From assembly GCA_032622095.1 (NCBI GenBank), contig CP136061.1:53827762-53891761 (forward strand): a DNA stretch of 64,000 bases, given 5' to 3'. The number at the start of each line of letters is the position of its first letter. Position 1 is the stretch's first letter. Shown here piece by piece: positions 35,460 to 61,155 of this stretch. A program made the position numbers and the translations under genes. Source of the DNA: Siphonodentalium dalli. Its lineage: Eukaryota; Mollusca; Scaphopoda; Gadilida; Siphonodentaliidae. The notes below the pieces were generated by a model that was not told the DNA's origin, did not search any database, and worked only from the letters and a program-made list of their open reading frames with translations.

Positions 35460-36683
35460 ATGAGCTCCATTCATGTTACCAAAGGATGTGGACGTCGTGA
35501 AACGACCATGTCTAACATACTTGCTGGCGCGACCTCTATTACAAACAAACTTATATCACAGGTTCGCAGATTAGCTGTAACTGAACCCTCCGTGGGAATT
35601 AATGACATCACAGAAGACGACCAACCGGACGACGACGAGACAGACGAAAGTTGCTCATATGTTGATCGCGATCTCGGAAATTTGACAGGTGAAACGACTG
35701 GTGTAGACAAGAGTGGATTCATACGCCCGACTGATGTCGAATTTGCTGAATTTCACTTGGTTGAGAAACGTGACAAGAAAAGGCCCACTTCACCGCTGAG
35801 AGCTAGATCATGGTCGAACATCACACGTGTTGGAATTCGGAATTCTACATTCGGTCAAGAGAATAAAGTTCCCGAGAAGATGACTCCACCGGCTACAAGT
35901 GGAGGATTAAAACAATTAATATCGCATTGTCAGTCTAGTCACAGTAATCCTGAGATAAACTCCAATTCACCAAAAAGCAGCAAGAAGAACTGGAATGAGC
36001 ACAACAGTACAAATAGTATCAAACAACACGTGGATGTACATACAATCAATGCCAAGGTCATTAAAACCCAAGGGCAGGCGCACATTATTGTTCAACTTCC
36101 AGGTAGTCGCCACGATATAACGGTCGTTACCGATGTAAGTGGGTTATTTTCTGATATACAATACGATAAGTTGGATGCTGGTCGCACATCACATGTGCCA
36201 AAATTGGCATCTATGGATGTACCGAAACCACCAGTTGATTGCCAAACATTCAAAGAAGGCGCCAATGCAGCCCACGGAGAACTAATGAACGGAAGCGACA
36301 GAGGGGTGGATAATATACGCAGCAATTACAAAGCACGTAACAGTAATGACACACTAACGACATATGGGCATACTATGGATCAGCTCGATGGTAAGATAAG
36401 TCACAGTGTTCGAAAAAGGCAACGATTTACTCAAATGCGTGAAAACGCGAGAAGTATTGACGACGAACTACATGTATCAGTACGTGCATATCAGGGGGCA
36501 AACTACATTGGCAGTAAGGGAGGGCATGGTCCTCGAACGAGAAAAACATTGTTACAGAATTACCATAAGGCACACAGCGTTGATTGTGTACTATGTGGTG
36601 ACGGAACGAGCGGCAAGATAAGCAATATCGACCCCGAAGATCGTCTTTATGCAGGCGTGCCCGCTTGGTGGAATGGTATCTAA
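35460..36683 (+). CDS. Unrecognised protein, single long exon
   Basis: An open frame runs 35259-36683. I prefer the ATG at 35460 (MSSIHVTKGCGRR; 407 aa) because the first 67 codons look like untranslated leader and the AAAATGA context is better. A further ATG at 35508 is also possible. The product is hydrophilic, with an acidic patch (TEDDQPDDDETDES), Ser/Asn-rich central segments, basic KRQR and RTRKTLLQN stretches, and a C-terminus ending AGVPAWWNGI. No transmembrane segment, signal peptide or family motif is seen. A CRE-like TGACGTCA lies near 35010. It is long for a chance frame in AT-rich DNA. It may be a lineage-specific gene or the main exon of a longer one. It overlaps an antisense frame at its 3' end. 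Confidence 0.5.
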   Translation: MSSIHVTKGCGRRETTMSNILAGATSITNKLISQVRRLAVTEPSVGINDITEDDQPDDDETDESCSYVDRDLGNLTGETTGVDKSGFIRPTDVEFAEFHLVEKRDKKRPTSPLRARSWSNITRVGIRNSTFGQENKVPEKMTPPATSGGLKQLISHCQSSHSNPEINSNSPKSSKKNWNEHNSTNSIKQHVDVHTINAKVIKTQGQAHIIVQLPGSRHDITVVTDVSGLFSDIQYDKLDAGRTSHVPKLASMDVPKPPVDCQTFKEGANAAHGELMNGSDRGVDNIRSNYKARNSNDTLTTYGHTMDQLDGKISHSVRKRQRFTQMRENARSIDDELHVSVRAYQGANYIGSKGGHGPRTRKTLLQNYHKAHSVDCVLCGDGTSGKISNIDPEDRLYAGVPAWWNGI

Positions 36684-38311: not shown

Positions 38312-39803
38312 GTGACATCTACGGAAGTCTATTAGGGCCATTTAATTTTTGTTATATAGTCATTAAAATATTTCCTTTATTTAATTTTTTATATATATTC
38401 ATTAAAATATTTCCTTTTTTTACTTTCCACTTGGGAGATAACTTTTCTCCCGGGAATTAACTTTTCTCACAGGGAGATAACTTTTATCCCGGGAATTAAC
38501 TTTTCTCACAGGGAGATAACTTTTCTCCCGGGAATTAACTTTTCTCCCAGGGAGATGACTTATCTACCAGGGAGAAAACTTTTCTCCCGGGAATTAACTT
38601 TTCTCCCAGGGAGATAACTTTTCTCCCGGGAATTAACTTTTCTCCCGGGAATTAACTTTTCTCCCAGGGTGAAAACTTATCTCCCAGGGAGAAAACTTAT
38701 CTCCCAGGGAGAAAACTTTTCTCCCGGGAATTAACTTTTCTCCCAGGGAGATAACTTATCTCCCAGGGAGAAAACTTTTCTCCCGGGAATTAACTTTTCT
38801 CCCAGGGAGATAACTTATTTCCCAGGGAGATAACTTTTCTCCCGGGAATTATCTTATCTCCCAGGGAGAAAAGTTAATTCCGGGAGAAAATGTTTCTCCC
38901 TGGGAGATAAGTTTTCTCCCTGGGAGATAAGTTAATTCCTGGGAGAAAAGTTATCTCCCTGGGAGAAAAGTTAATTCCCGGGAGAAAAGTTAATTCCCGG
39001 GAGAAAAGTTTTCTCCCTGGGAGATAAGTTATCTCCCTATGAGAAAAGTTAATTCCTTTTTACTTTCTTTTTTTACTTTCCACCTGGGAGATAACTTTTC
39101 TCCCGGGAATTCACTTTTCTCCCAGGGAGATAACTTATCTACCAGGGAGAAAACTTTTCTCCCGGGAATTAACTTTTCTTCCAGGGAGATAACTTTTCTC
39201 CCGGGAATTAACTTTTCTCCCGGGAATTAACTTTTCTCCCAGGGAGAAAACTTATCTCCCAGGGAGAAAACTTTTCTCCCGGGAATTAACTTTTCTCCCA
39301 GGGAGAAAACTTTTCTCCCGGGAATAAACTTTTCTCCCAGGGAGATAACTTATCTCCCAGGGAGAAAACTTTTCTCCCGGGAATTAACTTTTCTCCCAGG
39401 GAGATAACTTATTTCCCAGGGAGAACACTTTTCTCCCGGGAATTAACTTATCTCCCAGGGAGAAAACTTTTCTCCCGGGAATTAACTTTTCTCCCAGGGA
39501 GATAACTTATTTCCCAGGGAGAACACTTTTCTCCCGGGAATTAACTTATCTCCCAGGGAGAAAAGTTAATTCCGGGAGAAAAGTTTCTCCATGGGAGATA
39601 ACTTAATTCCTGGGAGAAAAGTTATCTCCCGGGGAGAAAAGTTAATTCCAGGGAGAAAAGTTATCTCCCAGGTGGAAAGTAAAAAAAAGAAAGTAAAAAG
39701 GAAATATTTAATGAATATATATAAAAAATTAAATAAAAAAGGAAATATTTTAATGAATATATAACAAAAATTAAATGGCCCTAATAGGCTTCCGTGGACA
39801 TCC
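38312..39803. mobile_element. Foldback element filled with CTCCC palindrome minisatellite
   Basis: Inverted arms of ~110 bp (GACATCTACGGAAGTCTATT... at 38314; its mirror ...GGCTTCCGTGGACATCC ends at 39803) flank arrays of 19-20-bp units: TTTTCTCCCGGGAATTAAC, TTTTCTCCCAGGGAGATAAC and TTATCTCCCAGGGAGAAAAC. The arrays alternate in orientation: forward 38422-38865, reverse 38866-39055, forward 39070-39545, reverse 39546-39671. The inner cassette including the TTTTTACTTTCCACYTGGGA edge is therefore duplicated. Each unit is itself palindromic. Confidence 0.85.
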
Positions 39804-40182: not shown

Positions 40183-40578
40183 TGAAGGTAACTGAAGAAT
40201 GACCTTCACCTGATACATGTGACACGTTATTAAATGATGACATCGTGTTTATTTGATTTGTACATCATATCTAAATAATTTAAACTGGTGAATTAATGGG
40301 GGAATGGATTTTTGTGAGTGGGAAATTGATTTAACTAGCTGCTGTAGTTCTGGGTTTTTCCAGACCAAATTTGGTTGTGGGATAGCCCTGTCGTACACTT
40401 GGGGATTTATTTTAAAAAGTAAACACATTACCTATGATTTGTCATGCATTTTCGTTATCAACTGGTGTCAATCTAGCTGGGTAAACACCACTGGAATAGC
40501 CTGTAGGCTTCAATTCAGAAAATTCGGTCGAAACGTTAACACTGTCGCCTGTGGGAAACCATTTAGCTCAGTGATTCC
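40183..40578 (+). repeat. Host repeat, copy 1, with empty TTAA target
   Basis: GAAGGTAACTGAAGAATGAC through CAGTGATTCCT. The segment CGAAACG-TTAA-CACTGTCGCC (TTAA at 40536-40539) is uninterrupted. In copy 2 the same phrase is split by the 16.8-kb transposon. The two copies differ at only about a dozen positions over 390 bp. Confidence 0.92.
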
Positions 40579-41424
40579 TATAAGAAAAAATTGAATTTTA
40601 CGAAATTTCACGTTTCGCAATGACAAGTTGTTAATTTCATATTTTCTTATTTTCAAATGATAATGGCGACATGTTGGACAGATTTAAAGAAGAAACTCCT
40701 GGATCCGTATGTAGATAGTAAAGAAAGTGATAAATCTGGGAATTATGCATGGGCAATAGGTACCATGAGGGGGTCATGGGGTCTAAAGCCCCCCCCCATT
40801 TCGAGGTGTGCTAGCCCCCCCCCCCCCCCCCCCCCCCCCCCATTGGGGAAAGCTGACAGCTTCCGGCACCCAGTAGCCCCTATCAGGGATCGTATCCCCA
40901 CCCCAAGTGGGGTGTGATGGCATCAACACTAGTATTACTGCCGTGCAAGACTGTCATGGCAGGTCTGTTAAACAGACATTATGTACTGCCATCTGGTAAA
41001 ATTGCATGCCTTTGTATCATTATGTTTAGATATTTCAATTGACTTATGGTTGCTTCATATTGCTATTAAAGTATTTTTAATTTAAATTTTCTGTTAATTT
41101 TGGTAAATTTTTATTATAAATTGCCAAATTCTGCACGAAAATCGTTCAAATTTGATATCACTCTCAAAATGTAGACTAACATTTCCTCTTCAATTTAATA
41201 ATATTATGGTGTATCAGGGCATATTTCAGTTTGTACGAGATACATCAGCTAAAAAGATCTTAATTTTTGGGGTTTTTTTTGACGATTGACACTAATTTTC
41301 AGGAGACCTCATATTGAAAAATTAAAACCAATACTACCCGATATAACCCATTTTTGGTTTCAGTAAGGTCTATATTTGGATAAAATAACTATAAGAAACG
41401 CTGTGTGGTACCCATATGCATATA
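40579..41424. other. Spacer with C-rich tract
   Basis: A run of 27 C residues lies at 40815-40841, preceded by another run of 9 C. The proline-rich open frame across it is not credible as a gene. The rest is AT-rich, without features. Confidence 0.5.
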
Positions 41425-41783
41425 TAGAAGGTAACTGAAGAATGACCTTCACCTGATACATGTGACACGTTATTAAAGGATGACATCGTGTTTATTTGAT
41501 TTGTACATCATATCTAAATAATTTAACCTGGTGAATTAATGGGGGAATGGATTTTTTGTGAGTGGGAAATTGATTTAACTAGCTGCTGTAGTTCTGGGTT
41601 TTTCCAGACCAAATTTGGTTGTGGGATAGCCATGTCGTACACTTGGGGATTTATTTAAAAAAGTAAACACATGACTTATGATTTTTCATGCATTTTCGTG
41701 ATCAACTGGTGTCAATCTAGCTGGGTAAACGCCACTGGAATAGCCTGTAGGCTTCAATTCAGAGAATTCGGCCGAAACGTTAA
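41425..41783 (+). repeat. Host repeat, copy 2, left part (interrupted)
   Basis: It matches copy 1 from GAAGGTAACTGAAG up to CGAAACG-TTAA, ending at 41783. The transposon starts at 41784. The continuation of the repeat is at 58580-58622. Confidence 0.92.
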
Positions 41784-41806
41784 AGGCCCACTTAATTTTC
41801 GAGTCA
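41784..41806 (+). repeat. Left terminal inverted repeat
   Basis: Perfect reverse complement of 58557-58579. Similarity does not continue inward. Confidence 0.95.
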
Positions 41807-42058
41807 TAAAATTTTAGAATTTTTTTTCATTATATTTTGCATCCATTTTGGATACAAAAAGCTATAGACATAGATTTGCCGACATTATCCGGTCGAAAAA
41901 GAACATATCAATAAGAAAATCGATATTATATTGTCGAAGTATCGATCATTGTTCTGAGCTCGACTGTAGAGTTGACTGTATCATGACTGTATTCGTGAAA
42001 TTTTCCGAGCGTCGCCGAACATTTTCGCCGATGTTCGGAATCGGCTTAATTAGATAAG

Positions 42059-42066
42059 TCACGTGA
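42059..42066 (+). promoter_or_regulatory. E-box TCACGTGA upstream of the P2X7-tail gene
   Basis: This palindromic CACGTG site lies 81 bp before the start codon and within 283 bp of the transposon end, where the promoter must be. Binding is inferred. Confidence 0.35.
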
Positions 42067-42146
42067 TCTAGATGATACACCTGTGAAAAGTAAAACAACA
42101 GTGCTTTGTCTCCAGCTTCATCGAGTGATCAAAGTATTTATTCGCA

Positions 42147-45100
42147 ATGTCGGTGAGTGCTATTCTATTATTCAAACTATTGTATTATGCTGTGATCAAT
42201 TTTGAGAGTTCCTCACAAAGAAAATACGATCTGCAAATGTCAATCGAACGGCGACAGCTTCGGAATGAATTTCCTAATTTCGTGTTAACCTAGTAGTAGG
42301 GATCTACGTACTTTTAGCGATTTCAGTTCATCTATTGACACAACATAACTTGTTATTCTAAGTCAATTATTCTAAGTAGCAGGTTGACAAATAAGGAGTT
42401 TAAACTTGTACATGTACGTCTCCGGGAAATATAACAATCTAGCTACAATGCCTGAAATCAACCATTCTTGTAGACTTGCCCCTGACATAAAACTTACCCA
42501 CTGGAGTGTATATTGCTGTATTCAGCGAGAATAACTGAAATCAGTTATTGTGGCAGAATGTTTACATTTCTCAGACCTGGTCAAGTGACCAATGTTGAAT
42601 GGTAATTTCCATTAAAATGTAGCTCAGCAAAAGAGTTATATATTTCTGGGTGTTTCTTTGTGCAGTATAATGAGTATTGGAACAAGTTGTCTTCGACCAA
42701 AAATAAAATAAGACAAATTTAATAGCAATGACATGTGGTCAATTCCTGTTAGTTTCACTTATTTTTTTTCAAACATTATAATTCTAATATTTCTCTTTCA
42801 TTTTTCTACAGTCAGATGGTTCAGCTGAAGACACCGGATGTAGCGGGGGAGAAAGTGGTGATACTGGAAATTCTAGTTCTCCAGTCGTACCAGAAGAAAG
42901 GACGAGACGGACTAGCAGAACAATCAGGAGGCCCCTCCGTCTGCAAAGTGAAGGGTACTCAACACCCACATCGAGTTCCCCATTGACCGTTCCCACGTCT
43001 AGGGGAAGGGGTAGGCCTGCCAGGGGAAGTGGTTCTACAGCACGAGGGACAGGGCGAGGTAGAGGCCAGACTCAAGATCCTGCCAGGGGAAGGGGTTCTA
43101 CAGCACGAGGGACAGGACGAGGTAGGGGCCAGACTCAAGATAGAGAAGTCGCGGTAGTGGCAGGACCCAAGAAGAAGGCGAAAAAGAGAAGTAGGAGCGA
43201 CATTGAGCGCGAGGAGGATGCGGCAATTGCAGCATCCATCGAAGCCGAGAGAAAGCGAAAAGAAGATTTTGTGACGGTAATTTTTTTTTTTATATATTAT
43301 TTGCTAACAAGAAGACAAAATTAACAGAGAACAAGATATGTACTAGTATGTACTAGTGACCATACATGTATAAGCCAACATTAAAATGTTACATTTTCTC
43401 GCTATTCGTAATTTGATATTTCAATTACACACACTTGAAACGACATTTGATGTCTTACAACAGCGTTTTGACCTTTTCCACAATACTCTATATAACTCTG
43501 CATTATGGACGACATCAGATTTCAGGCCATCCAAAATGAATTTTGTTTTAGCATTGTTTCTCCCAGAACAATGAGGGGATGGGAAATTTAATCTTTTTGC
43601 TAATGTGATCTAAAACGTTTGATGGTATTCATCTTCATTTCTCCACAGGAAAAAATACAACAGATGGATACCGACAGACTAATGGGTCTATGCTTGCAGA
43701 TGGCAAGTGCCCATCCAGCTATGGTTTTTGACCTGCTGGACAACACACCCATGCGTGGTGGTTACCATCCACCTGAAGGTAGCACCTCCCCCAATTGGTG
43801 TACCTGCGGCAATTGTAGAGAGATGCCGCAAGAAATAGAAAAATTATGCTGCAATAGGGTGCCTGAAGACTGCATATCTGTGTTACCTGTGAGTATAATA
43901 TATCATTTATCACACAACCACTCAAAAACTGATGATATAAATATAGGGAAAAATCCAAATTCAAACTCAAATTCAAACCTTTATTGTCATACATCCCCGG
44001 TTTAACTACTTTACATCATACATATATATTACTGTTAATACTGTACATGCATGAATAGAAAATTTGTTAATCGTTTCATGTGCATTCTCCTATGTATGCA
44101 CGGGAGCCTCACATACCAGTATATGATAGATTGCACTGGCTTACATGATGAAATATATTATTGTTAGGCGAATGTATTCTCTTATATATGCGAGGTGCCC
44201 TATGGGCGACGCATATATAAGATAATTATGCATTGGCACAAGTTTCTCACAAATAAATCAGGAAGCACCAGTCATCAAAAGATTAAAATATTGTGGCACA
44301 ACAGTTCTAACATTAATTAAAGACATCTTATGTACTTTTTTGGGTGCGTGAAACTGAGAAGTTACTATTCGGATGCTATGCCAACTGGAGAAATGTAACA
44401 CTACTAATATCGCCACAAATTTCAAGGAAATCGACCATACCACTCAATAGAAAACATTATCTGAATTACACGCTTAAGTGTAAATATTTACATCTCGATT
44501 CGGGATGGATGCATCTATTGCCGATAAACAAACAGAAATGATTTCGCCATCGAGAGTCATTGCATGTAATTGATATATAAGAATCATGTTGTGTGTTGTC
44601 ATTTTGAATTAATATTTGTAAAAATTTAACAAGATCATTCTGAATTTCTATTTGAGCACCCTACCGGAGTGTTTCACATCACTTTAAATGAATATGAACA
44701 AAATAGACTCATTCACTTGATACCTCAAATAAAACCTAGATTGGGTAATTAGCACATTGACTGCCACTATAAATTAACTTGTTGAACATGGTCCCATGAG
44801 GGCTACTACATGTATGTGTAATGTAGGTTTTACACGCCACATACCTACCCCAACCATATCAGTTTGGTTATAATATATAATAGAACACTTTTTGTTGAGT
44901 TACCAGTTATAAATCACCACCCTGCCTTAGTGTGATATCTTTTAGCTCATCTGGTTCTATGTTTATTACAAATCTCGTCATTATTTCACATGCTTTATAA
45001 TTGGTTACATTCTGGCAGTGGTAAAATTTGTAAATAACCGGCTATGGTGGAAACATGTACATGTAAATGCTTGTGGCTTGTTTGCCGAGGCAATGAATTC

Positions 45101-46926
45101 AAACCCATGGCAATGAGTGTACTAGTGTGTAGATGTATATATAAATTCATTAATCGTGTCTCGTACAATTGTGTCAACCAAAAGCGAATGGTGAGGCGTG
45201 TTACAAAGATACCACAAGATAACTTGTAAATGGGACAGGACTGAATAATCTCGTGGTTAAACAAATAATATGTTTGTGACATCTTAGATTACATTGAATG
45301 AACAATTGTTTTATTAAGATTTATTTATCGTGTCTTATACATGCTGTACAGTTAGTTATACATGATTTGCGAACATCTGTTAATCACTCTACATCACCTA
45401 AGTTGTCAAAAAAGTTATATTTGTTTACCTTTTTTAATGAGGTTACTGATAACACTCAGCTAGCACCAGTTAAGGAACACTGATAAATTCCATCCCAGTT
45501 GCAGTTACAAGTTATCTTGTTGTAGCTTTTTTACTTTGACACATTTTGGCATCATATAGCCCAATATTGGTCGAACCTAGATCATGCCATGAATCTCTGA
45601 GTACTCTGACTAAATCTCGTAAAGATCATATTCCACCAGCGACATTTTTTCTATGGGCATTAGTCAAAGTAGAGATTCATGGCATGATCTAGGTCGAACC
45701 ATCCCACCTACATACATAAAATATCGCACCAGTTAAGGAACACGGGTAAATACCATCCCAGTTGCAGCTTACAAGTTATCTTGTTGTAGCTTTTTTACTT
45801 TGACACATTTTGGCATCATATAGCCCAATATTGGTCGGACCTAGATCATGCCATGAATCTCTAAGTACTCTGACTAAAGCTCGTAAAGATCATATTCCAC
45901 CAGCGACATTTTTCTATGGGCATTAGCCAAAGTAGAGATTCATGGCATGATCTAGGTCGAACCATCCCCCCCTACATACATAAACTATCAACTGCTGGGT
46001 AGCAAAACATGCAGTCCCTTGTTGGTATACAAGTTTATATTACATGTACCCTTTAGTTTTCGGTAGTGAACACGTTAAAATAGGTCAATAAATACGCAAT
46101 ACTTATTGTACCGGTACATGTATATGACTCAGAAACCCTATTGTCAACATAGAGTGTTTGCTGTTGAAAATAATACGCACCGTTTCATCCCAAAGTCATT
46201 GAAAATGTATTTGAGAGGTTTACATTGGATTACTTCTAGACTATTAAAGTTCAAACTTGGGTTTCCATTTGAAATATTGACCACTGCAAGATATTACTGT
46301 GCCAAGTTTGGCCATAGGCCTGTTACAACAGTGTATGCTTTCGTAGAAGACTGACTAACATACTGGTACTGTTTCATGGGAATTAATGCCAGCGCCATTG
46401 TGCTTGCTACTTGGGATTTCATGCTCACTCAATATAAACTAAGTTTGACATAACAATAACTTATTGCGATTCAGCTGACAGTGAGTCGGTCATTGTTATA
46501 GTTACCCAAGTTTGAACTTTTTTCAATAAGAGAATATATATTTACATCTTCATTACCATTTTTGGCATAAAAATAAATTACTGATAGTTACTGATAGTTT
46601 TTCATTGGAACTAATACTGTGTATTTTAGACATATTTTTGATTTAGAAAACAAATTTTTCTGCAGGGCATGGAGAGTATCGTGTTGGATGAAGGAGTACT
46701 AATGGTGGCTCGCGCGTATCGAGGGACATCATTTAACCTCCCAGATCCAGACCCACTAAAGTCCAACAGACATACCGCATACAGACAATTTATTCTGTGG
46801 CGCCATGGCCGGCTAGGCAGAGGCGTCAGGAGAGTTATTCCATCCTGTTGTGTCTGGAAAATAAGAGACAAGTTTCCTGACCCGTTCGGCCAGTACAAAG
46901 GATTTGATGCCGGACGTCTCTTGTAA
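42147..46926 (+). CDS. P2X7 intracellular (ballast) domain protein, transposon-encoded
   Basis: Four exons, all with GT-AG borders and all phase 0: 42147-42152 (only Met-Ser), 42812-43276, 43649-43888, 46666-46926. Together they give 323 aa without a stop. Residues 3-157 are Ser/Arg/Gly-rich, with a GRGRP AT-hook-like core, two near-identical 22-residue RG repeats, a KKKAKKRSR basic patch and a charged [15 protein letters not shown] helix that resembles a ubiquitin-interacting motif. Residues 158-323 are the cysteine-rich P2RX7_C domain. They contain [20 protein letters not shown] (Cys208, 210, 213, 224, 225), Cys232, [13 protein letters not shown], and [20 protein letters not shown] (Cys298, 299). 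In P2X7 this fold binds zinc and guanine nucleotide. No membrane segment or channel part is present, so it is probably nuclear or cytosolic. It may bind DNA or assist transposition; the role is unknown. Confidence 0.88.
44085..44288. mobile_element. Degenerate piggyBac-type MITE, copy 1
   Basis: Contains the family hairpin TTCTCTTATATATGCGAGGY with its mirror CGCATATATAAGATAAT and ends near GGAAGCACCAGTCATC. It lies in intron 3 of the P2X7-tail gene. The left end is eroded. Confidence 0.5.
44290..44720 (+). repeat. Dispersed repeat in intron 3 of the P2X7-tail gene
   Basis: 44538-44720 matches the reverse complement of 14660-14843. The part at 44320-44440 (CTTATGTACTTTTTTGGGTG...) and the GTTTCACATCACTTTAA block near 44670 recur at 49310-49460. 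The latter lies in the last intron of the transposase gene. Confidence 0.55.
45464..45990 (+). repeat. Tandem duplication of 263 bp, each with an inverted repeat
   Basis: Units start CACCAGTTAAGGAACAC at 45464 and 45727. Each contains CTAGATCATGCCATGAATCT and its mirror ~100 bp apart. They lie in intron 3 of the P2X7-tail gene. Confidence 0.85.
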
Positions 46927-46998
46927 AATTAAAATTGCTCTTTAGTGAATCGTTTTTGAAGCCTTGAATTAATGAACTGATAATTGTTTTGGCTTTAA

Positions 46999-47400
46999 CC
47001 CTTTTATGACGGAAGCTGCACTGGTGCAGCATTAAAGATCACATGCCAGTGCATTCTCTTATATATGCAAGTCTCCCTTTGGTAGCCTCGCATATATAGA
47101 TAATTCACTGGCTGTCAAGGTAAATATTGTTAGGTCATTGTATTCTCTTATATATGCAAGACTCCCAATGGGAGGCTCACATACATAAGTTAATGCACAG
47201 GCATTTCACAAAACCCTTCCAAGATTGCAGGTTTCAGAAATATTTTGAAAACCTTGTTCATTCTCTCACATGTTAGTCTCCCACATGGAGCCTCACATTT
47301 ATGAGAAAAATGCACTGGCTATCATGCGAGACTGACAGAAGAGTGTGCACTGGCATATAATCTTTAATGCAGCACCAGCACAGCTCCCGTCAATAAATGG
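46999..47400. mobile_element. piggyBac-type MITE, intact
   Basis: TTAA (46995-46998) precedes CCCTTTTATGACGGAAGCTG; CAGCTCCCGTCAATAAATGG precedes TTAA (47401-47404). The CCC start and TTAA duplication are piggyBac hallmarks. Three internal palindromic units of the TATATGCGAGGCTCCC type lie at about 47052, 47138 and 47256. The 402-bp element sits between the two convergent genes. Confidence 0.75.
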
Positions 47401-48015
47401 TTAATATAAGGGCATTTCACCAAGAGTTAAAATTTTGAGTGCAACAAATCCATATCTGAAACTTTTCATCATTTGGAAATGACCACATTGGGCAAATGAT
47501 GTAACAAGTCATTTGCCATTCTTGGGTGTTTGGAGGGTCCTCTATCAACCAGTAACAGCAGCATCAAGTAATTTCGATGATTCGAAATAACTTTATTACC
47601 CAAAATATAATATATTTATGGTGTTGGGGGGGGGGGGGTTTAATGCCAAGCAAGTGTCTTCATTCTTGAGACACACCAAGAAGATTATAATTGATGTAAA
47701 ATATAAAGATGTAAAATTTAAATCCAGTATATAGCTTGGCATGTGGGGTGACTTCTTTACTCGGACATTTTAAATATAAAATCTAATTTAGCGGAGCTGG
47801 ACTTTGACGGGGTATAGTTCTACACATATTATTTTTTCTTTTCATGGTAGGGGGTTGAGGGGGTAAATCGTTGATGCTATGCAGTGTGAGTTTAGCTGAA
47901 ATTTAGTAAATCTATATGTAAATATTTATCAAGCATTTGCTGTATGTATATTGTTATTCATATCTCGACTTCTTGCGTTCCACGATCTCTTTTGTTGAAG
48001 GTGGCGATTTCTGGG

Positions 48016-51000
48016 CTATCCTCTTGGATAATCTTCTAGGGTCATCAGGCTTATTGGAATTTTCCGTAAAAGTGGTTCTTTGTCCACCATTTTTGCATCA
48101 ACAGCTTTCTTAACAATATTCGGAATGTAGTTGTAATTTTTTTTCTCTTTTACTCTATAGACTGTCCACTCTTTCGACTTCTTGTTGTATGATCGGTGGT
48201 ACCTGTAAACATGAATTGTTTTAAATACCATTTGAAACAATTTTGCAACTGCAAAAATCTATCAATATAAGAACCCTTTCAATGATGGGAAATGAGCTGG
48301 TGCAGCTATAAAGATCCTGTGCCAGTGCATTCTATTATATATGCCAGTCTCCCATAGCGAGCCTCACATATAGAAGAGAATGCACTGGCTTACAAGTTGT
48401 AAATATTATTAGGATAATGTGTTCTCTTATATATGCGAGGCTCTCTATGGGGGAGTCACATATATAAGATAATGCATTGGCACATGGTTTTCATGAAATT
48501 TCAGGAAGCTCCAGTCATGGAAGGGTTAAATAACATAAGACTAAAATCTAAACAGTCGAACTTCATTAATTCGAATTTAATAAGTCACCGATGATTGTAC
48601 CTTCATTATCTGGACATCAGCTTGACTTTATCGTTACAATTAGTGTAATAACTTGCAGGACTATTTTTAGTTTCAACTTTGCACACCCTACAGCCGACAT
48701 TTATTGAGGAAATGTTTTGAAAATGTACAGGCATGTTTAGGATCGCCTATGGGAGCTATCAAAATTAAGAGAGTTTGACTATACATGTACAACTGATTTG
48801 CATAAAGAAATGAAGTTTCAGCTTCGGCCCTAATCTGTGGCTATCAATCAATGCATACAGATGTGGATTTGTGAAATTGAAGTATTGTTTTTTATTCTTT
48901 AGAAATCTTTTGTTCATATTGCTTTTTCGATTGAATATTTTATTGCAAGTACCATATTTTGATGAAAATATATGTTTCCATATTTCATAAATTATTGATT
49001 TATGGTTTACTATCCACCCCACCCCCTTTTCAAGTGAATATGCTGAATTGTCCTTAAATCTCACCTTGGTTCATTAGCTTTTGTACTGGCATATCCCCTG
49101 TCTTTGTGGTTCATGTAATCCAACGCTGCCAGGAAACATCGTGCGTGGTATACTGGATATGTATAAGCATATCGTTTTGCTGCGTACATCAATATATGTT
49201 GATGAAAACATTCCAATGTAGCTGTAGATCTGAAAAAAGATTTAGGAGATATTTGTATTGGAGAAAACTAGAAATTGAAGGGGTTGGGTTGTCTTTCACA
49301 GCCATTATTTCACAGTACATATTATGTACTTGTTCAGGTGCCTGAAACTGTTAGTATTCAGGTGCTATTATAACTGGAGGACTGTACTACTAACAACGGC
49401 GGATAATACTCCATTTGTATTTGATCACCATACCAGAGTTTTTCACATCACTTTAATAACTATTAACTTATGCATTGTTTTTCGCTAGGTCAATGGCACC
49501 TATTCCATGACACCCACCCATGTCAAATTACCTCTGTCCCGCATATTGCCATAGCTGATTAGAATGCTCTTTATTGCTCAAGTATGATAATATAATTTAA
49601 GGTCAACTGCACCTATCCAATGCTCCAGCAACCAGTGTCCAACCATTTGAGTATATGATTAATTATTTTGTTAAAGTAACTAAATGCCCTTTTAATACTG
49701 ACCATATATAGGGAGCCTCGCATATATAAGAGAATACACTGGCCTACAAAGTCATTGGAAATATTGTTCGGTAAATGTATTCTCTTATATATATGTGAGG
49801 CTCCCTATGGGAGACTCACATATATAAGAAAATTCGCAAAAATCTCAGGATGCTCCAATCATGAAAGGGTGTCATTCCAAATGTTAATTGATATTTTGAT
49901 ACATCACAAATCCATACATCCTGTTGATGACCCAGTGCCTCATACATACACAAATGTTTAAGTTAACTTACCTGAAGTTTAGATAGTATGATATTTTATT
50001 CAAGAATCTTTTTGCAAGGATAGAGTTTCCAAGTTCTCTGTGAACAAATGACCCTTCATGAAGCCAATCAGCACGATGGTCATCTGCTAAAGGTTCATGT
50101 AGACACTTTCCTGGTCCAAGTCCATTTCCAATTGGGAAGTCATCATGTTTATTTGTAACATGAAAGAGCAGAGTGGACCACATCCCCTGTAAATGTATTT
50201 TAGCAAAATCAGTACCTGTCCCATAGTCTAGTGGTGAAGGTAGATTTGTCCATGAACGGGAACAAAGAATGCAGAAAGTTTTATATTTTAAATAAGTCTT
50301 GGTCGATAAGCACAATATGTGGATGAACAGAGGTGTTGGTTGTTCGGTGGTCTAAGGAAATGTTCAGATAAAAGTTAGTTGTTTGTCTAACATTTCCCTA
50401 CAATCAATAGGAATGCATATGTGAGTGTATTATTGTCGTTTATTTTCCCTGAAAACCCTCCTAATCCATCGTATCAGAAAGAAGCCACATCGAATTTAAT
50501 TAATATCAAATTGTTACTAACTATATCAATTCAATTTTAACATTCAATCACATTTTCTAATAATCTTAACAATTTTCAGCTCTGACATAAAAACTTACTG
50601 TGAATTGCTCTATGGTCGTGCTATTCTTGGCGCAGTACCAAAAATGGTTTGTCAAATCCTTGATCCAGCCTTCCAATTGGGCACACCCTTTTTTCTTTGC
50701 TACCTGAATAGGAGTTGCAATGCATGTTTATCAATATCAAATTTATCTGACAATACCATCATATTGGCAACATCAACATGAAGTAGTTATGGCTCCTATT
50801 CAATGTGTCGTATACACCAATTTGTACTCTATTCCATACTACTAATTTTGTTGAATACACATGCTTCAAGATAATTGGTGTTGAATAACATGCGGAGAAT
50901 CATTCAGGCCAATACATATTAGAGGGAAAATGTGAATAGAAGACCCACCAGGATTCCATTATGGGTCAAGACACATAAGGCCATCAACTATCATACAATC

Positions 51001-54000
51001 ATGGGCATTGGGCAGAACTGAATTTGAATCCAAATGGGCTCAAATTGATTACTATTATGGTATCTGAATTCAACCAAGAACTTATGGCATATGACTAACG
51101 GAAAAGCCGAACAAGACGGTTGAACACCATTGAATGTCCTCACAGTAGAGAACATCCATAAGAAATTTCATATTTCTATATTGCAACACAATGTGATGCT
51201 TTATCCAGCTAAGCTGCACCATCTTCCCATTTTCTTTTCAAAAAGATGAACTATAATTTTCTTACCTTCCTAAGCTTCTTTGCCAAGAGTTTAGCACCAT
51301 GCCATATATCATAGGAATGTTTTATCTCAGGATGTTTCTTTTCTGGAAATCAAAAGAATAACTGTAATGATGATACCAAAGCAATTGCTGTAATGTGGGT
51401 GAGGGTAGGAGAGTTAAAAACAACAATTTAGTTACAATTTGAGACTGGATAATACGTTGAAATTATTCTGATTTTATTCAAGTTTTTCAATGTCTAGTAT
51501 TATATGTAGTTTTTAGGTAAAATATTTTTGAGGAGTGGGTAGTGATAAAATATTCTTACACTAGCCGAATACTGTAAATATAGAGAAGCTACATGTAGTA
51601 TTTCCTACGCTGAGCAATACATCAGCAGCGGATACATAACCATCACAGTGTCACTCACTTAAAAGGCAAGAAATCTGCGTATGTTCATCTGTTGCCACCT
51701 CTGTTATTTTCATATCATTCCTCTGCATATCTTCAATAACACGCTCAAAACCAAGTTTCTCCATATTTGTGGATTTTCCACCCGTCTCCCTTTTATCAAC
51801 TGTCTTCATTGATATTATGGATTCTGTCCTCTGATCAAGGGCAGTGTATGTCAGATATTTCGCAGAATGGCCCGGTGAGTCACATCGCCCATCACCTGAA
51901 GATTTAAAAGCATGATTTGTGACAACTAATTGATTCTTTGATAAAGATCACTCTCACCCCTCCCCAAGTTACCCCAACATACAATAAATATGCTGATATA
52001 GAACATGTATAATCATTTTCGCCATTGGGGCATGTAATGCTCCAAGAAGTCAGCATTTCACAATTGTAAATGCACAGATGGCATTTGTTACAGGTTATAT
52101 TTAGAAATAACAGTTACCAAATTGTGAAAAATTCCTCAACAATATACTAATAGTATAGTATAATGATACTTAGTATGAATGCGATATTTTCCACAAAACA
52201 CTTTAGGTGAGCTGAGCATTTTTTATATACAGCATGTATATAGTGAGTGATAAGCAAAACACTCAATACTGTGGTGATTTTTAGGAGAGTCATTCACGGT
52301 GACCCATTCAACACCCGAATCTTGAGTAGCAAGGATTAACAAGCACTATAACTGTATGTTGCAAACAATTTAATGGCCCTTTCTAACCAGTTCAATTAGT
52401 GCCGTCTCCGCAGTGTTGAGTGTTTTGCTAATCGCATACTCTCGGGTGCCCAATAATCATGATGGCCTAATAATAGTGATGGGTGGGGATTTGGGCTGAA
52501 ATTAATAATAGTGATGGCAATTTAACTTTATGTCTTAATGCCAAATAATAGTGATCTCCAAAATTAATAATCATGCTGACACTATTATTGGGCACCTGAG
52601 AGTACATGTACTCTTTTCATACTGTGTTTATATAACATGGTGTTTGTTTCCATGACACAGAGTAATAATTATGATTGGTGTAAGAACAATGTTTGTCTAT
52701 AATACAATACTCTTTCTACAATATTTCAGGCCTTGTTAGGACACACAACAGTACATCTATTCTTACCCAGAAGTATAATTTCCTCATCTTTAATATTGGC
52801 AACTGTTTTCTCCGTCATCGTTTTGAATTCATTTTCTATAGTTGGTATTGTGTAGAGTGACGAGAACTGGTGAAATATGGGTTCAGCCATTATCTTCAAA
52901 TTCATAAACTTTGCCAACAGTTGAATTTTCACAAAGTTATTCCCAGACAGAAAGATGGCGCTTGACAACATTATGTCACCCAAACTCATTCGGCCAACTG
53001 CAGGTTGCGAGAACCACTTATTCAGCACATGTCCCGAATCACAGACCTGTTTATAAATAAATTTAAAAATACTAATACATGTATCTTTGTCCTTTAACTG
53101 ATATATTTCTCACCACACAATATGGTTATTTTAGAAAAAGTAGTGTATCCTATGATTTGTAAACTTTTATTACATACCTGTGTGATTTACCATTATTTCT
53201 CGAGTTATAAACGATAATTTCACTAGTGAATTATTGAAATTTTATAACAACCGTGTTATGTATTGATATTTGTTATATATTCATCATGGATATAATGGCA
53301 GTGTTATTCAGATTTCTGGTAAATCAGATGTTTATAGTGGAATATAATAAACAGATGCTGAATAAAGACTCCCAAAGTGAGCCTGTTTTAGCTAGTTCTC
53401 TATTACTTAGAAAATAAAAATTCAGAGGTTGTTTGTAATAATTAAGTTCAATTTGGTCATATAATAAACATATTATTACTACAGTGAAGCGATCTGAGTA
53501 TCCACATCACGTCTCGTTGAGAAGGTGAGATCACAGATCAGACTCGCAGCCTGCGGCAGCTCGTCTGATCCGTGATCTCACATTCTCAACTTGGTGTGAT
53601 ATGGAGACTCAGATCATTTCACTGTAGTGATAATCTCTATTACTTACCCATTCAAGTACAAGTGAAGATCCTCGTTGCTTTGAAATTACTTTAACGGTCA
53701 TCCCACAACCTTTTCGCTGACAATTCTCCATTTTCTTTACAGTGAGGAGCTGCAAAATACTTTCTTCATAAGCTATGCATGGGGTATACTCATTACTGGC
53801 TCCCAGTGCCACTTGTATCTTTTTTGTTCTGGGTCTCTTCGTTACTGCTTGACTTGATTCGTCATCACTATCACTACCATCAAAAGGGTCATCAGCCGCA
53901 AGATCGTGTACCAATTCCGCCATTGACTGATTCGCCACATCATCATCATCTAAGTTATTTGGCCTAAATGTGAGGAAAAGATAAACAGTTTGAATAAAAG

Positions 54001-57000
54001 TATGCTTTACATGTATGATATCACTTTGCTTCATGGGTTGACAAAACATGAGACCAAAGTTATTAAATTATATTGCATCTGACCCTAGCTGACAACATTT
54101 TTTCAGTTTTGTTTTCAACTGAAAGTGTTCAAACTTTCAAATAAAGTGACACATGGTGAGAAGTTTCCCAATTGGAAGTCATAACATTCTATAATATGTC
54201 ATCTCTCTGTCTAATTGTTGACATAACCATACAATTGGGCTTGTTTTGATGAAAATAAGAATTAATCGTTAGCTCCTATTTAGAGGTCATCCCAGAAATT
54301 CATATCAAGATTGGGATCAGTCGCAATGAAAATGTGGGCTGTAGGGCATGCCAAAGGATTTAGGGATACAAAGATTAAAATCCAAAATGAACTGACAGCC
54401 ATGTTTTTGCCAAACTCCCATCCAGAAAGCTAATAGCAATCGGAGTGCTTATGGGGACGGGATTCTGAGGTATGAATTTGACAACATTGAACTAAGAACA
54501 GTTTGCATTTAACATACCTCAGAATTATTTCAAAGTCTGATTCATCGCTATCAGATTCTTCTTCCACATTCCAGTATGTTTGAAACCAGTCATCAATTTC
54601 TTCTTCCTCTTCCTCTTCATCTTCCTCTTCTGAATCAGATGTATCATCAGATTGAAAACTTATTTCAATAGTGTGCCTGGAATTGAAATTGAAGATGTCT
54701 TTGAACATGCCATCAATGTATGTCGGAAACCGCAGAGAAGATTATATCAAACTGTTTTCTACATCATTTATTTTCTTTTGCAAATGCAGTAAGAATTTTC
54801 TAGTGGATAACAGAATGCTATACGACAAATACGACATACATTATGCTTTACCAGTAGTCCAATATGTCTCATAATGATGTTATCAAGAACTGCATTTTAT
54901 TTTCTTTGGACCCATCATGATTAATATTTATTTAAATCATGTCAAGTGATTTCAGCGAAGAGTTAGTCAGCACCATCCATCATTGCACATTAGAGATACG
55001 GTATTATTTCAACTTAATTTTTGATACATAAGCAGCAGATACGAATAAATCTGGAATTTATCCCACTATAGTATATGAATTATCATAGAATGCATCACGG
55101 ATTGAATATAAGAGACAATTAATGTGAGAAAAATGAAGATCTCACCCAGGGTTATTGTAGTAGATGTAACTTGTATCCTGCAGTTTTGATCTAGTTCTCG
55201 TTTCTGTGCCAAGTTTAATTGGCATTGCACCCTCATCGGAACTTATGATCTTCTGACAGCCCAAACTGCTATCAGAATCTAGTTTCATTCTGCAATAAAA
55301 GAAAAAACAAATTGCCTCAATTTGACAAAATTTCAATTTGAATGGTTTGACACGACCTAGGAAATATATCATGGAATTATAAAATCCAAATACCCTCTAT
55401 TAGTACAGGTTTCTATTCATTTTCATGTGGCCACACAGACTGAAATCACAAAAACTTCACAACAAAGATAAATTGAAAATGCATTCGTCATTTGGACACT
55501 AGTTTGAAAGCATTTGTGATGGCAAACAAGCATTGAAATAGTGAGTCTGTCATTTACAGAATGAGGTTCCCAGAGGATGAATTTAGTGATGCTATCCCGC
55601 ACAATGGGCTAGCATCACCAAATCCACCCTTTGGGAACCTGATTCTGCTAAGGCCTAAGCAGAATGAGGTCCCCAGAGGATGAATTTGGTGATGCTAGCC
55701 CACTGTGCGGGATTGCACCACTAAATTCACCCTCTGGGGACCTCATTCTGCAAATGACAGACTCACTATTTCAATGCTTGTTTCATGGCTTGATGGCAAA
55801 CCTCTATACCAAATTTCATTTCAATCCGAAAACCCATGGCTGAGATATCTGCACAAACGGAAAGAAAGAAATGATTTCCAGACAAAGGATAATTCTAAAT
55901 GGAAAATGTGAACAATTTAATTTGCCCATCTTCTGTAAGCATCATGATGGTAAACCTTCATTATGCTTCATATGAATCGGATGAGGGATGTGGCCTGTAG
56001 ACTGGAGGGTGTGCTGAAGATATTGTCTTGAAGAGTAAAATTAAATTACTCAAGAACTTTTTAGAAGGGTCATTACTCTGGAAAATATGGACAAAGCCCA
56101 TTGTTTGTTAATACTCATTCCCCTTGTTGGTTCATCAACATACTGAAGATCAATAAATTCCAACTGATGATGACCAAGATGTAGAGATTCAATGTTGTTA
56201 CTGATGGACAGACTGACACACGGATTGACGGGAGCCCATTTATATATCCACTACTAGTACAAAACGTTGTTTGCAGGCGAATAACCTTTTGATATTCCAA
56301 TTTGGATGTATTTTTAACATCACCAATGAACACTCTCAACCATATGAGTATTAACATTTGCTCTCGATCAAGTCTTTTACAATACATACATGTATATATG
56401 TATATCACACAATCAAATCATATCAATGTGACAACTTCATTGTAAATTATATGAAAATAGAGTATATTGCAATTTACCTTAAAGGAGATGACCGATTTGA
56501 TATGTTTGAGAGATCGCTATCTTCCAATCTGGGAAGAGCTCCTTTACTCAAATGTTCTGCAGGTGTAGAAGAAATTAGCTGGCTCTTTGCAACTGGTGCA
56601 GTCAGTAATTTTGGAGTTGGCGGACATGTCTGACTTTGTGGCACTGTACTTGTACTGCATACAGCTTCCGTGTCAATTGCTTGATCTTGAGCAGCTGGAA
56701 CGGGTACAAGTATCTGAGTGTCAAAGGCAGAGCTTCGCTCCTCTACCAGCAATCCAGATTCCTGTGTTCGTAATTCAAAAAATCTGAAATAGAATTTTGT
56801 TTTGGATTGATCAGGATTGATACATTTATTATATCACATGTCAAAGTACCCGACAACTGACGTCTATAATTATGGGTATCAAATCTCGGGAGAAAATGGA
56901 ATATTCCTCATGTGGAGGGGTTCTCACACCACCCCCTAGGATTTGCAGTTTTTACTTTTTAATTTCATATTTCATAATGGTTGCTAAATGACAAAAATTG

Positions 57001-58288
57001 AAAGTGTCCTGACTCTGGTGGAAATGTCTGACTTGGACTAGTTTGTAAGCTTGTTTAAGATATTTCCAATTGAGAACTCATAGTCATACATGTATATACA
57101 AACAAGAGATGGACTGTCGTCCGGTGCATACCCCCTCGTGGCATACCGCCTAGTGTGGGCACATCTATAACTTATGATGGCTATACTCAGACATATGGAC
57201 CCAGAAATCAGCATTTTCATATAAACAAAGATGAATAACTATAGAACAAAAAACCAAAACAAACATTTGAATGTGCCATTAAATGTCCTCATAGTGGTGA
57301 ATTTCCATACAAAATTTCATTGAGATCCGAGCATTACTGTTCAAGTTATGACCTGAACAGACATCGGATGGACCAAACAGCCAACATGTCCAGATAAACG
57401 AACTTGAATAACTCTAGAATGGAAAAGCGGAACAGAACAATGGAACCCCCTATTGAATTTCCTCATAGCAGTGAACATTGAGATCCCAGCACAACTGTTG
57501 AACATCCATACATAATTTCATTGAGATCTGAGCACTTCTGTTCCAAGTTATGACAAATTGACATGAACAGACATATGACGGACGTACGGACAGACGGGCG
57601 CAAGGACGGGCAGACAGGTGCAAAACAGTACAATGTATACCACCTTCTTTTTTTTAAAAGGGGGTATAAAAATAATTTAATTTGAAATCCATTGATAATT
57701 GGTTGAAAAAATAGAACACAAGAACAACTTTTCGGGACAGGCGGACGGACAAATATATATTTCCCACACCAAAGGATAAGGAGTTAATCTACTAGTACTA
57801 TGCATGATCTGGCTGCTAAAATGTTGGCAGTTTTTCAGATCACAACATGATTTCCAAAAATGTTGATCAGTTACACTGGGCCAAAAGCATTGATCTGTTG
57901 ATTGGGGATGGGGTGCAGAGGAAAAACAGTTAATAATTAGAAAGGTGGACACCTTGCCCACTACGTAGTTCACGTCAATGTTTAGCAATCTGCTGTCATC
58001 ATGATTCAATTTCGGAACAATGTTGGTACCGTAGACTGAGTAGACTATGAGTACAGCGTAGAAGTTTCTAGAACGGTAGACGATTTTTTGTTTGTTTACC
58101 AAATTCACCAATTCAATTTCAACTCACCTGTCCAAAAGAGTCGTTGCAATAATCTCGTCTCTTCTGTATTTCCGAGCCGAAATTATGTTTCCGACTAGAG
58201 CCCATCGTTCAATCTGTTCACCGATACGAACGCGCGCCTTTTCCCTTTCGGATTCGTAAACTTTCTTTTTCTTCTCTTTGGACGCCAT
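48016..58288 (-). CDS. DDE-transposase-like protein of the 16.8-kb element, 11 exons, intact
   Basis: Exons 58288-58128, 56783-56478, 55289-55146, 54676-54518, 53963-53648, 53046-52767, 51895-51659, 51342-51266, 50703-50599, 50186-49972 and 48202-48016 all have GT-AG borders and consistent phases. They total 2,187 nt (728 aa) with no stop. Residues 1-60 are basic (KEKKKKK). Residues 200-290 are very acidic. Cys338, Cys343, Cys364 and His368 form a zinc-finger-like set. SGHVLNKWFSQPAVGRMSLG (366-385) leads into an RNase H-like core: GDGRCDSPGHSAKY (456-469), EVATDEHTQI with Asp525, and HSYDIWHGAK (543-552). NHFWYCAK (579-586) and HEGSFVHREL follow. This order is shared by a large family of animal transposase-like proteins that I take to be Kolobok transposases. 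I could not assign the third acidic residue with confidence. The start codon lies 291 bp inside the right terminus. The protein is presumed to cut at the TTAA ends. Confidence 0.87.
48274..48525. mobile_element. piggyBac-type MITE, copy 3
   Basis: Starts CCCTTTCAATGATGGGAAAT and ends GCTCCAGTCATGGAAGGG, followed by TTAA; the left duplication has eroded to AGAA. It carries two TATATGCCAGTCTCCC/TATATGCGAGGCTCTC palindromes. It lies in the last intron of the transposase gene. Confidence 0.65.
49687..49869. mobile_element. piggyBac-type MITE, copy 4, degenerate
   Basis: Begins CCCTTTTAATACTGACC and ends CAATCATGAAAGGG. It carries the same TATATATGTGAGGCTCCC palindromes and lies in the last intron of the transposase gene. 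Target duplication is lost. Confidence 0.55.
52205..52438. mobile_element. MITE, family B, copy 2
   Basis: Counterpart of 32305-32552 with AGCAAAACACTCAA near the left and TTGAGTGTTTTGCTAATCGC at the right. It lies in intron 6 of the transposase gene and abuts the next MITE. Confidence 0.6.
52439..52602. mobile_element. TA-flanked MITE (mariner-like)
   Basis: TA|CTCTCGGGTGCCCAATAAT at the left and ATTATTGGGCACCTGAGAG|TA at the right give 19-bp inverted ends with one mismatch. 164 bp, intron 6 of the transposase gene. Its left TA coincides with the end of the family B MITE. Confidence 0.7.
55524..55783. repeat. 260-bp palindrome made of two smaller palindromes
   Basis: Arms of 130 bp meet at AGGCCT (55651-55656). 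The outer parts share AAACAAGCATTGAAATAGTG and its complement. Each arm also folds on itself (55557-55646 and 55659-55750), giving a cruciform. It lies in intron 2 of the transposase gene, so the pre-mRNA can form a long double-stranded stem. A diverged single unit is at 23529-23620. Confidence 0.88.
57105..57667 (+). repeat. Dispersed non-autonomous element ending GGGGGTATAA, copy 2
   Basis: It has repeated ~170-bp units sharing ATTTCATTGAGATCYGAGCA and CAAGTTATGAC, then a GGACGTACGGACAGACGGGC run and AAAAGGGGGTATAA. It is in the same orientation as 18149-18855. A partial unit without tail is near 51080-51200. It lies in intron 1 of the transposase gene. Confidence 0.65.
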
Positions 58289-58556
58289 GTTTTTTTACCT
58301 GTCTGTGGCATCTACCGGAAATCTGCGAGAACTCCCGGAATTAGTCATGAATTCCAAGACTGGTTTCGCGTGAAGCATGCTGGGATGAATAACGGGGGTA
58401 TTCTTTCTGTGATTTTAGCGATTTTCGGTTGCTCTATGAGCACATTCTGAGACACAAACGTGTCACATGTTGATGGATTATATTAGTTTAATTATAATTC
58501 ATGTCATAGATTGTCATTAAAACCGAAAATCGCGACACCATAAAAAAAATAATCGG

Positions 58557-58579
58557 TGACTCGAAAATTAAGTGGGCCT
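58557..58579 (-). repeat. Right terminal inverted repeat
   Basis: TGACTCGAAAATTAAGTGGG... is a perfect mirror of 41784-41806. The ATAAAAAAAATAATCGG just inside is shared with the 482-bp element at 26336-26817. Confidence 0.95.
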
Positions 58580-58622
58580 TTAACACTGTCGCCCATGGGA
58601 AACCATTTAGTTCAGTGATTCC
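58580..58622 (+). repeat. Host repeat, copy 2, right part
   Basis: TTAACACTGTCGCC...CAGTGATTCCT continues copy 2 after the transposon. It matches 40536-40578 with three differences. Confidence 0.9.
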
Positions 58623-59324
58623 TTCAACACGTGTACCGCGTGACGCTCACACCGATCGAGGTGGCCATTAATGACCGCGCCAGATCAGACAGTGTGTGTA
58701 CTACACGGGGTGGGGGTCTGCACCCACACCAACAACATACATGAACAATTGTTGTAATGGGGGACGTCGGCATTTTGCTTTCGGATCTTTATTCAAGGAT
58801 CTCGAATAAGATGTTATGTTCTTCGGAATCTAATGTCTATATATGTATAGGGACAAGAGGGGAACTCGGAGGATGAGCTTGTTCATTGACAACAAACACT
58901 GTAGTTCAGATTCAATTGGGCTGTTTATTATTATAAACATAAACAACCAATAATAACTTAAACAAAATATATTGTCAAGAAGGTGGAGGCCAATATCCGC
59001 CAAAAATGCAACAAGGTTACTGGCAGTATTCATCTGCTACAGTAATAAGATGCCTTTGCCCAACCCGAAGCCGACGAGTGCCCATTGAAGGGGATATCCA
59101 AAGCATGATATTGATATACACACCATGGCTGTGCTAGCAGCAAAAGACGTATCAACTTAAGAAGCAAGTTGTTGAATGATTGATCAAAAGTGTAGTTTTT
59201 TAGTGGGTTCTGCGAATTGACAGTAGATTCAGAGTGTAAACAGGTAATGTGTTAACCAGTAATACTGTAAATGGCATTGCTAATTGATATTAACTTAATC
59301 ATATTTAAAATTGCATAATAACTT
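58623..59324. other. No feature recognised
   Basis: Unique-looking sequence with short open frames only. Confidence 0.4.
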
Positions 59325-60480
59325 GTTAGGGCTAAATACTGGTCAGCCCCAGTGTATATGAGTGGTCTGGTCTGAAAACTGGTTAGCTACTATTTTAATC
59401 AATAGGACAAATCTAATTATTTACAAAACAGACAGGTCTGAATAGTTTTCAGCCCCAGCATAGTCTTAACTATGTTCTGGTGTGAAATTTGTGAGGATGA
59501 AATTGGTCAATTTAAAATTGTCTGGTCAGAATATTATTAGGCACCAGTGATATTATAAACTATGTTCTGTTATAATTCTTAATACATAAAATTGTCTGGT
59601 CTGAATGATTTCCAGCCCCAATAATAATATATACTATGTACAATTATACTTCTGCAGACATAACATTGTCTGGTCTGAATGCTTTTCAGCCCCAGCGACA
59701 ATATAAACTAAGTTCGATTATAATTCTGCATACATAAAATTGTCTGGTCTGAATGCTCTTCAGCCCCAGCAATAATATAAACTATGTTCAGTATAATTCT
59801 ACATCCATAAAATGGCCTGGTCTGAATGATTTTCAGCCCCAGGTTGGTGAGTTTTCTGGTACAAACTCTTTTCAGCTACTGCCGTAAGCAATAAGACAAA
59901 TGTAATTATTTACATAACATACAGGTCTTTACAGTATCAGCATAGTAGGAAAATTGTTAATTTAGAATTGTCTGGTCTGAATGCTTTTCAGCCCCAGCGC
60001 TAGTATAAACTATGTTGTATATAGTATAATGGCCTGGTCTGAATGTTTTCAACCCCAGGAATATATTGAGTTTTCTAGTAAGAACTCTTTTCAGATACTG
60101 TCGTATTCAATAAGAACAATGTAATTATTTACTTAACATACTAGTCTGAACGCTTTTCAGCCCCGTCATAGTGTGGAATTGTGGATATAACATTGTCTGG
60201 TCTGAATGCTTTTCAGCCCCAGCAATATTATAAACTATGCTCGAATGCAGTGTTGTGTATTGAAGTGTCTGGTCTGAATGCTTTTCAGCCCCAGGTATAT
60301 GAGTTGTCTAATATAAATTCTTTTCACGATTGTGTAGTCGATAAGACAAATGTAATTATTTACATAAAACTGGTCTGGATACGTTTCAGCCCCAGCAATG
60401 ATATAAACTATGTTCTAGATAGTATTGCTTTGCATAATACTTTTCAGCTTCAGTGTATGTGACAGTCTGGTCTCAATAAT
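59325..60480 (+). repeat. Degenerate minisatellite (GTCTGGTCTGAATGCTTTTC)
   Basis: About a dozen units of ~75-115 bp share TGGTCTGAATGCTTTTCAGC and CCCAG, then ATATAAACTATGTTC and, in longer units, ATAAGACAAATGTAATTATT. The frame that reads SGLNAFQPQ across 60181-60462 comes from the repeat. Confidence 0.85.
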
Positions 60481-61155
60481 TTTCAACCACCATCCACTCA
60501 TGTAATCGGAAAATTGCAATCGTTTACTACACTGACTGATCGGAATATTACAGTATTTCAACCCAGGTGATAGTATGACTACCCGTATGTTCTAACATAT
60601 GTTCAGCTATGCTTTTATAGTCTTTAAGAACACTGTAAATATATATTGTCATAGCACACTGGTCTCAAATCTCACTAATATAAGTAAGCGAATGAAGCTA
60701 TACTTTTATAATCCATTTGCTATATGTCGTACACGTAATGCGACGATGCGAGTATAAAGTGAGCAGTTAACATGTGGATTACGGTAAGCTGAATATCTAT
60801 CGAGGACTAGAGAGGCGTAATACCTATCGGGACCGCACATACTATATCATTAGTGGAGTGGTCAATTAAGCCTCTAGTTTTACTATGGTAAAGTTTGTAT
60901 ATGTTTCAGTATATGAATATACAAGCCACACATCCACAAATAAAACACACTGATAGTCATTCTACAAATGCAGTGGTTTTTAATGGTATATGAGAGATAC
61001 AGTAACAATGTATCTACATGTTTATATATTACCCAGACTACAAGCCAAGTCTGTGGACGCATTGTATAGCGTGATAAGCTCACTGGCAAAGGTAAGCGAA
61101 AGAATATAAAGGTTTCACTTCTATTCCGATGGGAAAAGCCGAACCAGGTGGAACA
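60481..61155. other. No feature recognised
   Basis: AT-rich sequence between tandem arrays. Confidence 0.4.

Follow-up and report, generated by a model that had tools for sequence, protein, structure and literature searches.

The analysed window is a stretch of 64,000 nucleotides of contig CP136061.1 from the scaphopod mollusc Siphonodentalium dalli. Positions 41784–58579 of the window are occupied by a DNA transposon of 16,796 bp with perfect 23-bp inverted ends and flanking TTAA. The left terminal inverted repeat (41784–41806, plus strand) has the sequence AGGCCCACTTAATTTTCGAGTCA, and the same 23 bp form the right terminal inverted repeat (58557–58579, minus strand). The termini of the window copy are 5'-AG ... 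CT-3' and thus follow the 5'-RR ... YY-3' rule. TTAA target-site duplications adjoin the left end at 41780–41783 and the right end at 58580–58583, and are positioned likewise in sister copies from the same genome. The inverted ends and the TTAA on both sides are confirmed exactly where a first-pass annotation of this DNA had placed them. The two ends of the element have only the 23-bp inverted repeat in common, and no long terminal direct repeat of about 450 or 660 bp was found. An Rfam search of the window gave no match.

Two genes with many introns had also been described in the element, and both are recovered as predicted gene models, whose exons together make up about 20% of its length. 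Splice sites and the sister copies guided the manual modelling of the exons. The predicted transposase gene is located on the minus strand and has 12 exons and 11 GT-AG introns, with splice sites that are kept in all three full-length sister copies. It encodes 783 residues in the window copy and about 800 in the sisters. Exon 1, which carries the start codon (58128–58288), is followed by exon 2 (56478–56783), exon 3 (55146–55289), exon 4 with an acidic stretch (54518–54676), exon 5 (53648–53963), and exon 6 (52767–53046), which has 94–97% identical matches in the other full copies. Exon 7 (51659–51895) encodes the blocks GDGRCDSPG and VATDEH, which probably provide the first two catalytic acidic residues. 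According to the gene model and the comparison with a relative, exon 8 (51266–51342) contains DIWH, corresponding to a C/DxxH signature, and exon 9 (50599–50703) contains GWIKDLTNHFWYC and belongs to a zinc-finger region. Exon 10 (49972–50186) precedes exon 11 (49065–49229), in which TLECFH would supply the catalytic E. The blocks GDGRCDSPG, VATDEH, DIWH, and TLECFH occur in this order, as they do in an intronless relative on C8 of the same genome (28% identity, E 5e-55), with which GDGR-DSPG, TDxH, DxWH, and LExFH are shared. The putative zinc-finger region lies between the C/DxxH signature and the last E; GWIKDLTNHFWYC and later H and C residues match those of the intronless relative. A 150-bp insertion in the sister copies C2a and C5a was considered as a missing exon and ruled out, as the DIWH exon is located elsewhere and is present in the window copy.

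Exon 12 of the window copy (48016–48202) has a one-base deletion near position 48050, and the missing base is present in all four sister copies. The deletion causes the loss of the reading frame for the last ~32 residues, whereas in the sister copies the exon 12 frame runs further and ends with ...KKSRYE. It is possible that the missing base is a base-calling error in the assembly. Nevertheless, the earlier description of the genes as intact does not apply to the frameshifted transposase of the window copy. C7a has a stop in transposase exon 1, and both the transposase and KolX are open in C2a and C5a. In a Pfam search, the spliced transposase had no significant transposase match, the best being DDE_Tnp_ISL3 at 0.036, below the cut-off. 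The same search contained no piggyBac transposase domain and no THAP match up to an E value of 10, although a THAP domain may have diverged or be encoded by a missed exon.

Intron 2 of the transposase gene contains a 257-bp near-perfect palindromic repeat (55527–55783). Similar repeats are present at two other loci, and the palindrome appears to be a short nested element that all full-length copies share. At six places between 44154 and 49842, the introns and 3' regions of the two genes contain a hairpin-like repeat of 84 bp, beginning with TTCTCTTATATATGCGAGGCTCCC, which is found close to other loci of the genome as well.

The second predicted gene, KolX, is located on the plus strand and converges with the transposase gene. 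It has three exons encoding 321 residues. An RG-rich basic N-terminal part is encoded at 42812–43276, in an exon whose AG/GT splice sites are conserved in five copies. The first half of a P2X7-type ballast domain (CTCGNC...CC...C) is encoded at 43649–43888, and the last exon (46666–46926) contains the second half (PSCCVWKIR) and the stop codon; both halves were assigned from Pfam and P2X7 structures. A tentative candidate for a first exon, encoding Met-Ser, is located at 42147–42152 on the plus strand. It contains the sole upstream in-frame ATG with a phase-0 GTGAGT donor, and its sequence is the same in all five copies. The joined KolX protein matches Pfam family PF20478 (P2RX7_C) at 8.5e-33. 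In solved P2X7 structures it matches residues 467–592 of the cytoplasmic ballast (1.1e-21), with the zinc-binding cysteines aligned. Judged by these matches, the predicted KolX is a zinc-cysteine protein related to the "ballast" domain of the P2X7 receptor. The cysteines are conserved as in the receptor, but KolX is without the channel domain, and its ballast domain is split over two exons, whereas that of P2X7 is contained within exon 13 (PMC7016195).

The genome (2.2 Gb, 9 contigs) was searched with both ends of the element and the matches were extracted. Such a search for further full-length copies bounded by TTAA had been proposed in the first-pass annotation, and it identified three of them: C7a (16,900 bp), C2a (17,454 bp), and C5a (17,791 bp). 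Additionally, C6a (9,337 bp) has an internal deletion of 7.5 kb and intact ends, and a 266-bp element, C5m, has the same ends. All five are bordered by TTAA on both sides and lie in different flanking sequence. A check for copies lacking TTAA showed that the young copies are all flanked by it, and the four-base duplication is present in all six young copies that have both ends. The window copy, C7a, C2a, C5a, and C6a are located on five chromosomes.

Over aligned bases, the window copy and its four relatives are 98.8–99.7% identical, the value for C2a and C5a being 99.7%. Among the four full-length copies, 104 shared sites join the window copy with C7a and one site conflicts with this pattern. 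The figure relevant to the age of an insertion is the number of the element's own private substitutions. Among 16,135 sites, these amount to 57 in the window copy (0.35%), 42 in C7a, 28 in C5a, and 13 in C2a (0.08%), so that C2a appears by this count to be the youngest sister. In the two genes, the window copy differs from C5a at 14 synonymous positions per 755 sites and at 12 non-synonymous positions per 2,548 sites (Fisher p 0.0006). Such an excess of synonymous change fits a period of selection on the proteins that preceded the divergence of the copies. The genome also contains older partial relatives, with 88–98% identity over aligned blocks. At 46109–46113, C2a and C5a have about 1.03 kb of extra sequence that is absent from the window copy, C7a, and C6a, and that seems to replace a few bases.

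The element interrupts a repeat on the plus strand, the left part of which is located at 41427–41783 (94–98% identity to 40184–40539) and the right part at 58580–58623 (93% identity to 40536–40579). An uninterrupted paralogous copy on the plus strand at 40184–40579, with its TTAA at 40536–40539, represents a related empty site. When the flanks of the window copy are joined, they can be aligned with this upstream repeat over 290 columns, with 95.5% identity and a single gap, and the alignment continues unbroken across one TTAA. The restoration of the repeat described in the first-pass annotation is therefore real, but the upstream copy is not the element's own empty site in the sense of a private record of the insertion. 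The upstream copy belongs to a highly abundant, dispersed, and partly tandem repeat, for which a first look across the genome gave 2,643 candidates. Many of these are 93–96% identical, and they often form rows with a spacing of about 1.24–1.35 kb. Several copies of the repeat stop at one place, at repeat position about 397–400.

C6a and C5a have related empty sites as well, C6a at three loci (97–98% identity over 500 columns) and C5a at two (91%), and each of these is continuous through one TTAA. Paralogous empty sites are thus exact across one TTAA for three insertions, those of the window copy, C6a, and C5a. For C7a, no empty site was recovered with the joined flanks; this copy sits at the edge of a repeat, and only the flank on its right is repetitive. 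The claim of precise mobility can be retained in part. Clean insertion with TTAA is documented at three loci, but the upstream repeat is neither an excision product nor an allele. Because it belongs to a dispersed repeat, it shows the precision of the insertion and the target before insertion, not the departure of the element from a site. Similarly, the small number of differences between the repeat copies, which had been taken as a sign of recent activity, amounts to about 4.5% and dates the duplication or spread of the repeat, not the insertion.

The Kolobok superfamily is defined by TTAA duplications and 5'-RR ends, the latter separating it from piggyBac (Kojima & Bao 2022, PMC9587614). The C/DxxH signature is typical of the hAT, P, MuDR, Kolobok, and Dada superfamilies, and the Kol0 lineage is characterized by the pairing of a transposase with KolX, from which the P2X7 ballast is likely derived (PMC9587614, 2022). 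TTAA, 5'-RR ends, the DxxH signature, and KolX are all present in the element, which on these features represents a new family within an established lineage, Kol0 of the Kolobok superfamily. The assignment rests on the motifs, KolX, TTAA, and the termini because of the lack of a significant Pfam transposase match. The reading of the first-pass annotation, in which one contiguous DNA transposon with two genes and many introns inserted precisely at a TTAA target, stands, but the class, Kolobok/Kol0, had not been named.

The element has in common with Kol0 elements of the Kolobok-1_XT type (PMC9587614) the TTAA, the AG ends, a DDE transposase with DxxH, and the KolX ballast fold. It differs from them in its 12-exon transposase gene, a KolX gene of at least three exons, the family's length of 16.8–17.8 kb, and in that no THAP domain was detected. 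The full-length XKol elements of Xenopus tropicalis (PMC6004289) are likewise flanked by TTAA at either end and have AG termini, a transposase of similar size, and, as in the family described here, several full-length copies of one subfamily. However, the XKol coding sequences listed there are about 2.3 kb, as for uninterrupted genes, compared to the 12 exons here, and the Xenopus Kolobok transposases have THAP domains. The full lengths among those listed are 6.8–13.9 kb. Xenopus Kolobok thus reaches at least 13.9 kb, and the element described here, although longer, has a length of the same order. KolobokP (PMC9587614) belongs to the same superfamily and also has two convergent genes, but it carries long terminal direct repeats and a His-Me nuclease, neither of which was found in the element, and is only 4.0–4.7 kb long in oyster, compared to 16.8 kb. 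The novel aspects of the element are its length, its introns, and the lack of a detected THAP domain.

The element in the window is, with high probability, a copy of a young, long Kolobok-superfamily (Kol0) DNA transposon family moved by its own DDE transposase. A piggyBac-type transposon, from the other superfamily that uses TTAA, would produce the same target-site duplication, and KolX-like C-terminal proteins are known from a small number of piggyBac families (PMC9587614). However, the termini begin with 5'-AG, which fits the Kolobok rule, and the DxxH block together with the order of the motifs disfavours piggyBac, as does the Pfam result. Furthermore, KolX retains its zinc cysteines here, unlike the described piggyBac versions, and we consider a piggyBac origin very improbable. 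Chance pairs of ends could occur, given the abundance of the 23-bp end (2,760 copies in the genome), and the apparent unit might then consist of two short same-ended elements flanking host genes, or of misassembled sequence. This is hardly credible, as the same end-to-end order is found at four other loci, three of them full length, the ends are flanked by TTAA as a pair in each copy, and the empty site contains a single TTAA and no short element.

It could also be argued that the family is old and no longer mobile, and that its copies are relics with decayed genes. The disabling changes in the window copy and C7a agree with this, as do the older partial copies. In contrast, C2a and C5a are nearly identical to each other and have both genes open, C2a has accumulated very few changes of its own, and synonymous change exceeds non-synonymous change. 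Therefore, we regard the loss of mobility as rather unlikely. Present activity of the young Kolobok family, as suggested by its low divergence and open reading frames, is plausible.

In the favoured Kolobok reading, the DDE transposase would be made from the 12-exon gene, spliced as modelled. It most likely binds the 23-bp ends and cuts the element out, and would insert it at a TTAA, duplicating the four bases. We infer that this is a cut-and-paste process, rather than another DDE route. KolX, encoded from the other end of the element, is a putative accessory factor that may aid transposition. The transposase might also move, in trans, many short elements with the same ends. The exact 23-bp end is present in 2,760 places genome-wide, and its reversed control in none. 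TTAA directly precedes 2,303 of these ends (83%), compared to a chance expectation of 0.8–0.9%. With thousands of identical ends in the genome, short elements that may be mobilized in trans are probably numerous. Both C6a and the 266-bp element kept their ends and lost coding parts, which fits non-autonomous derivatives. A broader proposal, possible but tentative, is that an active THAP-less Kol0 sub-lineage with host-like many-exon genes grew to 17–18 kb by intronic insertions, is mobile as a unit, and provides the transposase for short elements with the same ends, which number in the thousands.

Transposase and KolX matches are located close together and in convergent orientation at several other loci of the genome. 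Intron-rich relatives, with coding parts distributed over many exons, are present for example at C2:230.86–230.87 Mb, C1:202.88–202.91 Mb, and C6:71.87–71.89 Mb. Intron-rich relatives with 40–60% protein identity share the layout of the element, indicating that the introns are not peculiar to one family. Relatives with long uninterrupted frames are located at C8:189.81 Mb and C7:27.29–27.30 Mb. The intronless Kol0 relative at C8:189806740–189815358 has an open transposase frame of 632 residues and a convergent KolX frame of 189 residues. A search for TTAA plus inverted matches did not reveal the ends of the intronless relatives. As judged from these frames and exon arrangements, intron-rich and intronless Kol0 lineages coexist in one genome.

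The family provides a clean multi-copy example of very long intron-rich Kolobok elements in one chromosome-level genome, with three empty-site loci and two copies in which both genes are open. The link between KolX and P2X7 has been published previously (PMC9587614). The family offers a good natural system for studying the role in transposition of KolX, the probable origin of the P2X7 ballast, and for studying how numerous introns and nested insertions are accommodated within a DNA transposon.

The window contains additional repeats and coding remnants outside the element. Interrupted frames at 3627–5441 contain a Mutator-like transposase domain (PF20700, 1.4e-23), and reverse transcriptase domains (PF00078) mark the remnants of two retrotransposons, on opposite strands, at 8564–10238 and 11932–13543. 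An open frame of 478 residues at 35247–36683 has no significant Pfam match. A 1.2-kb array of 19–20-bp units with long inverted self-matches is located at 38369–39589. From 59316 to 60494, starting about 0.7 kb past the right end of the element, units of about 74 bp (CTGGTCTGAATGCTTTTCAGCCCCAG) form a degenerate tandem array.
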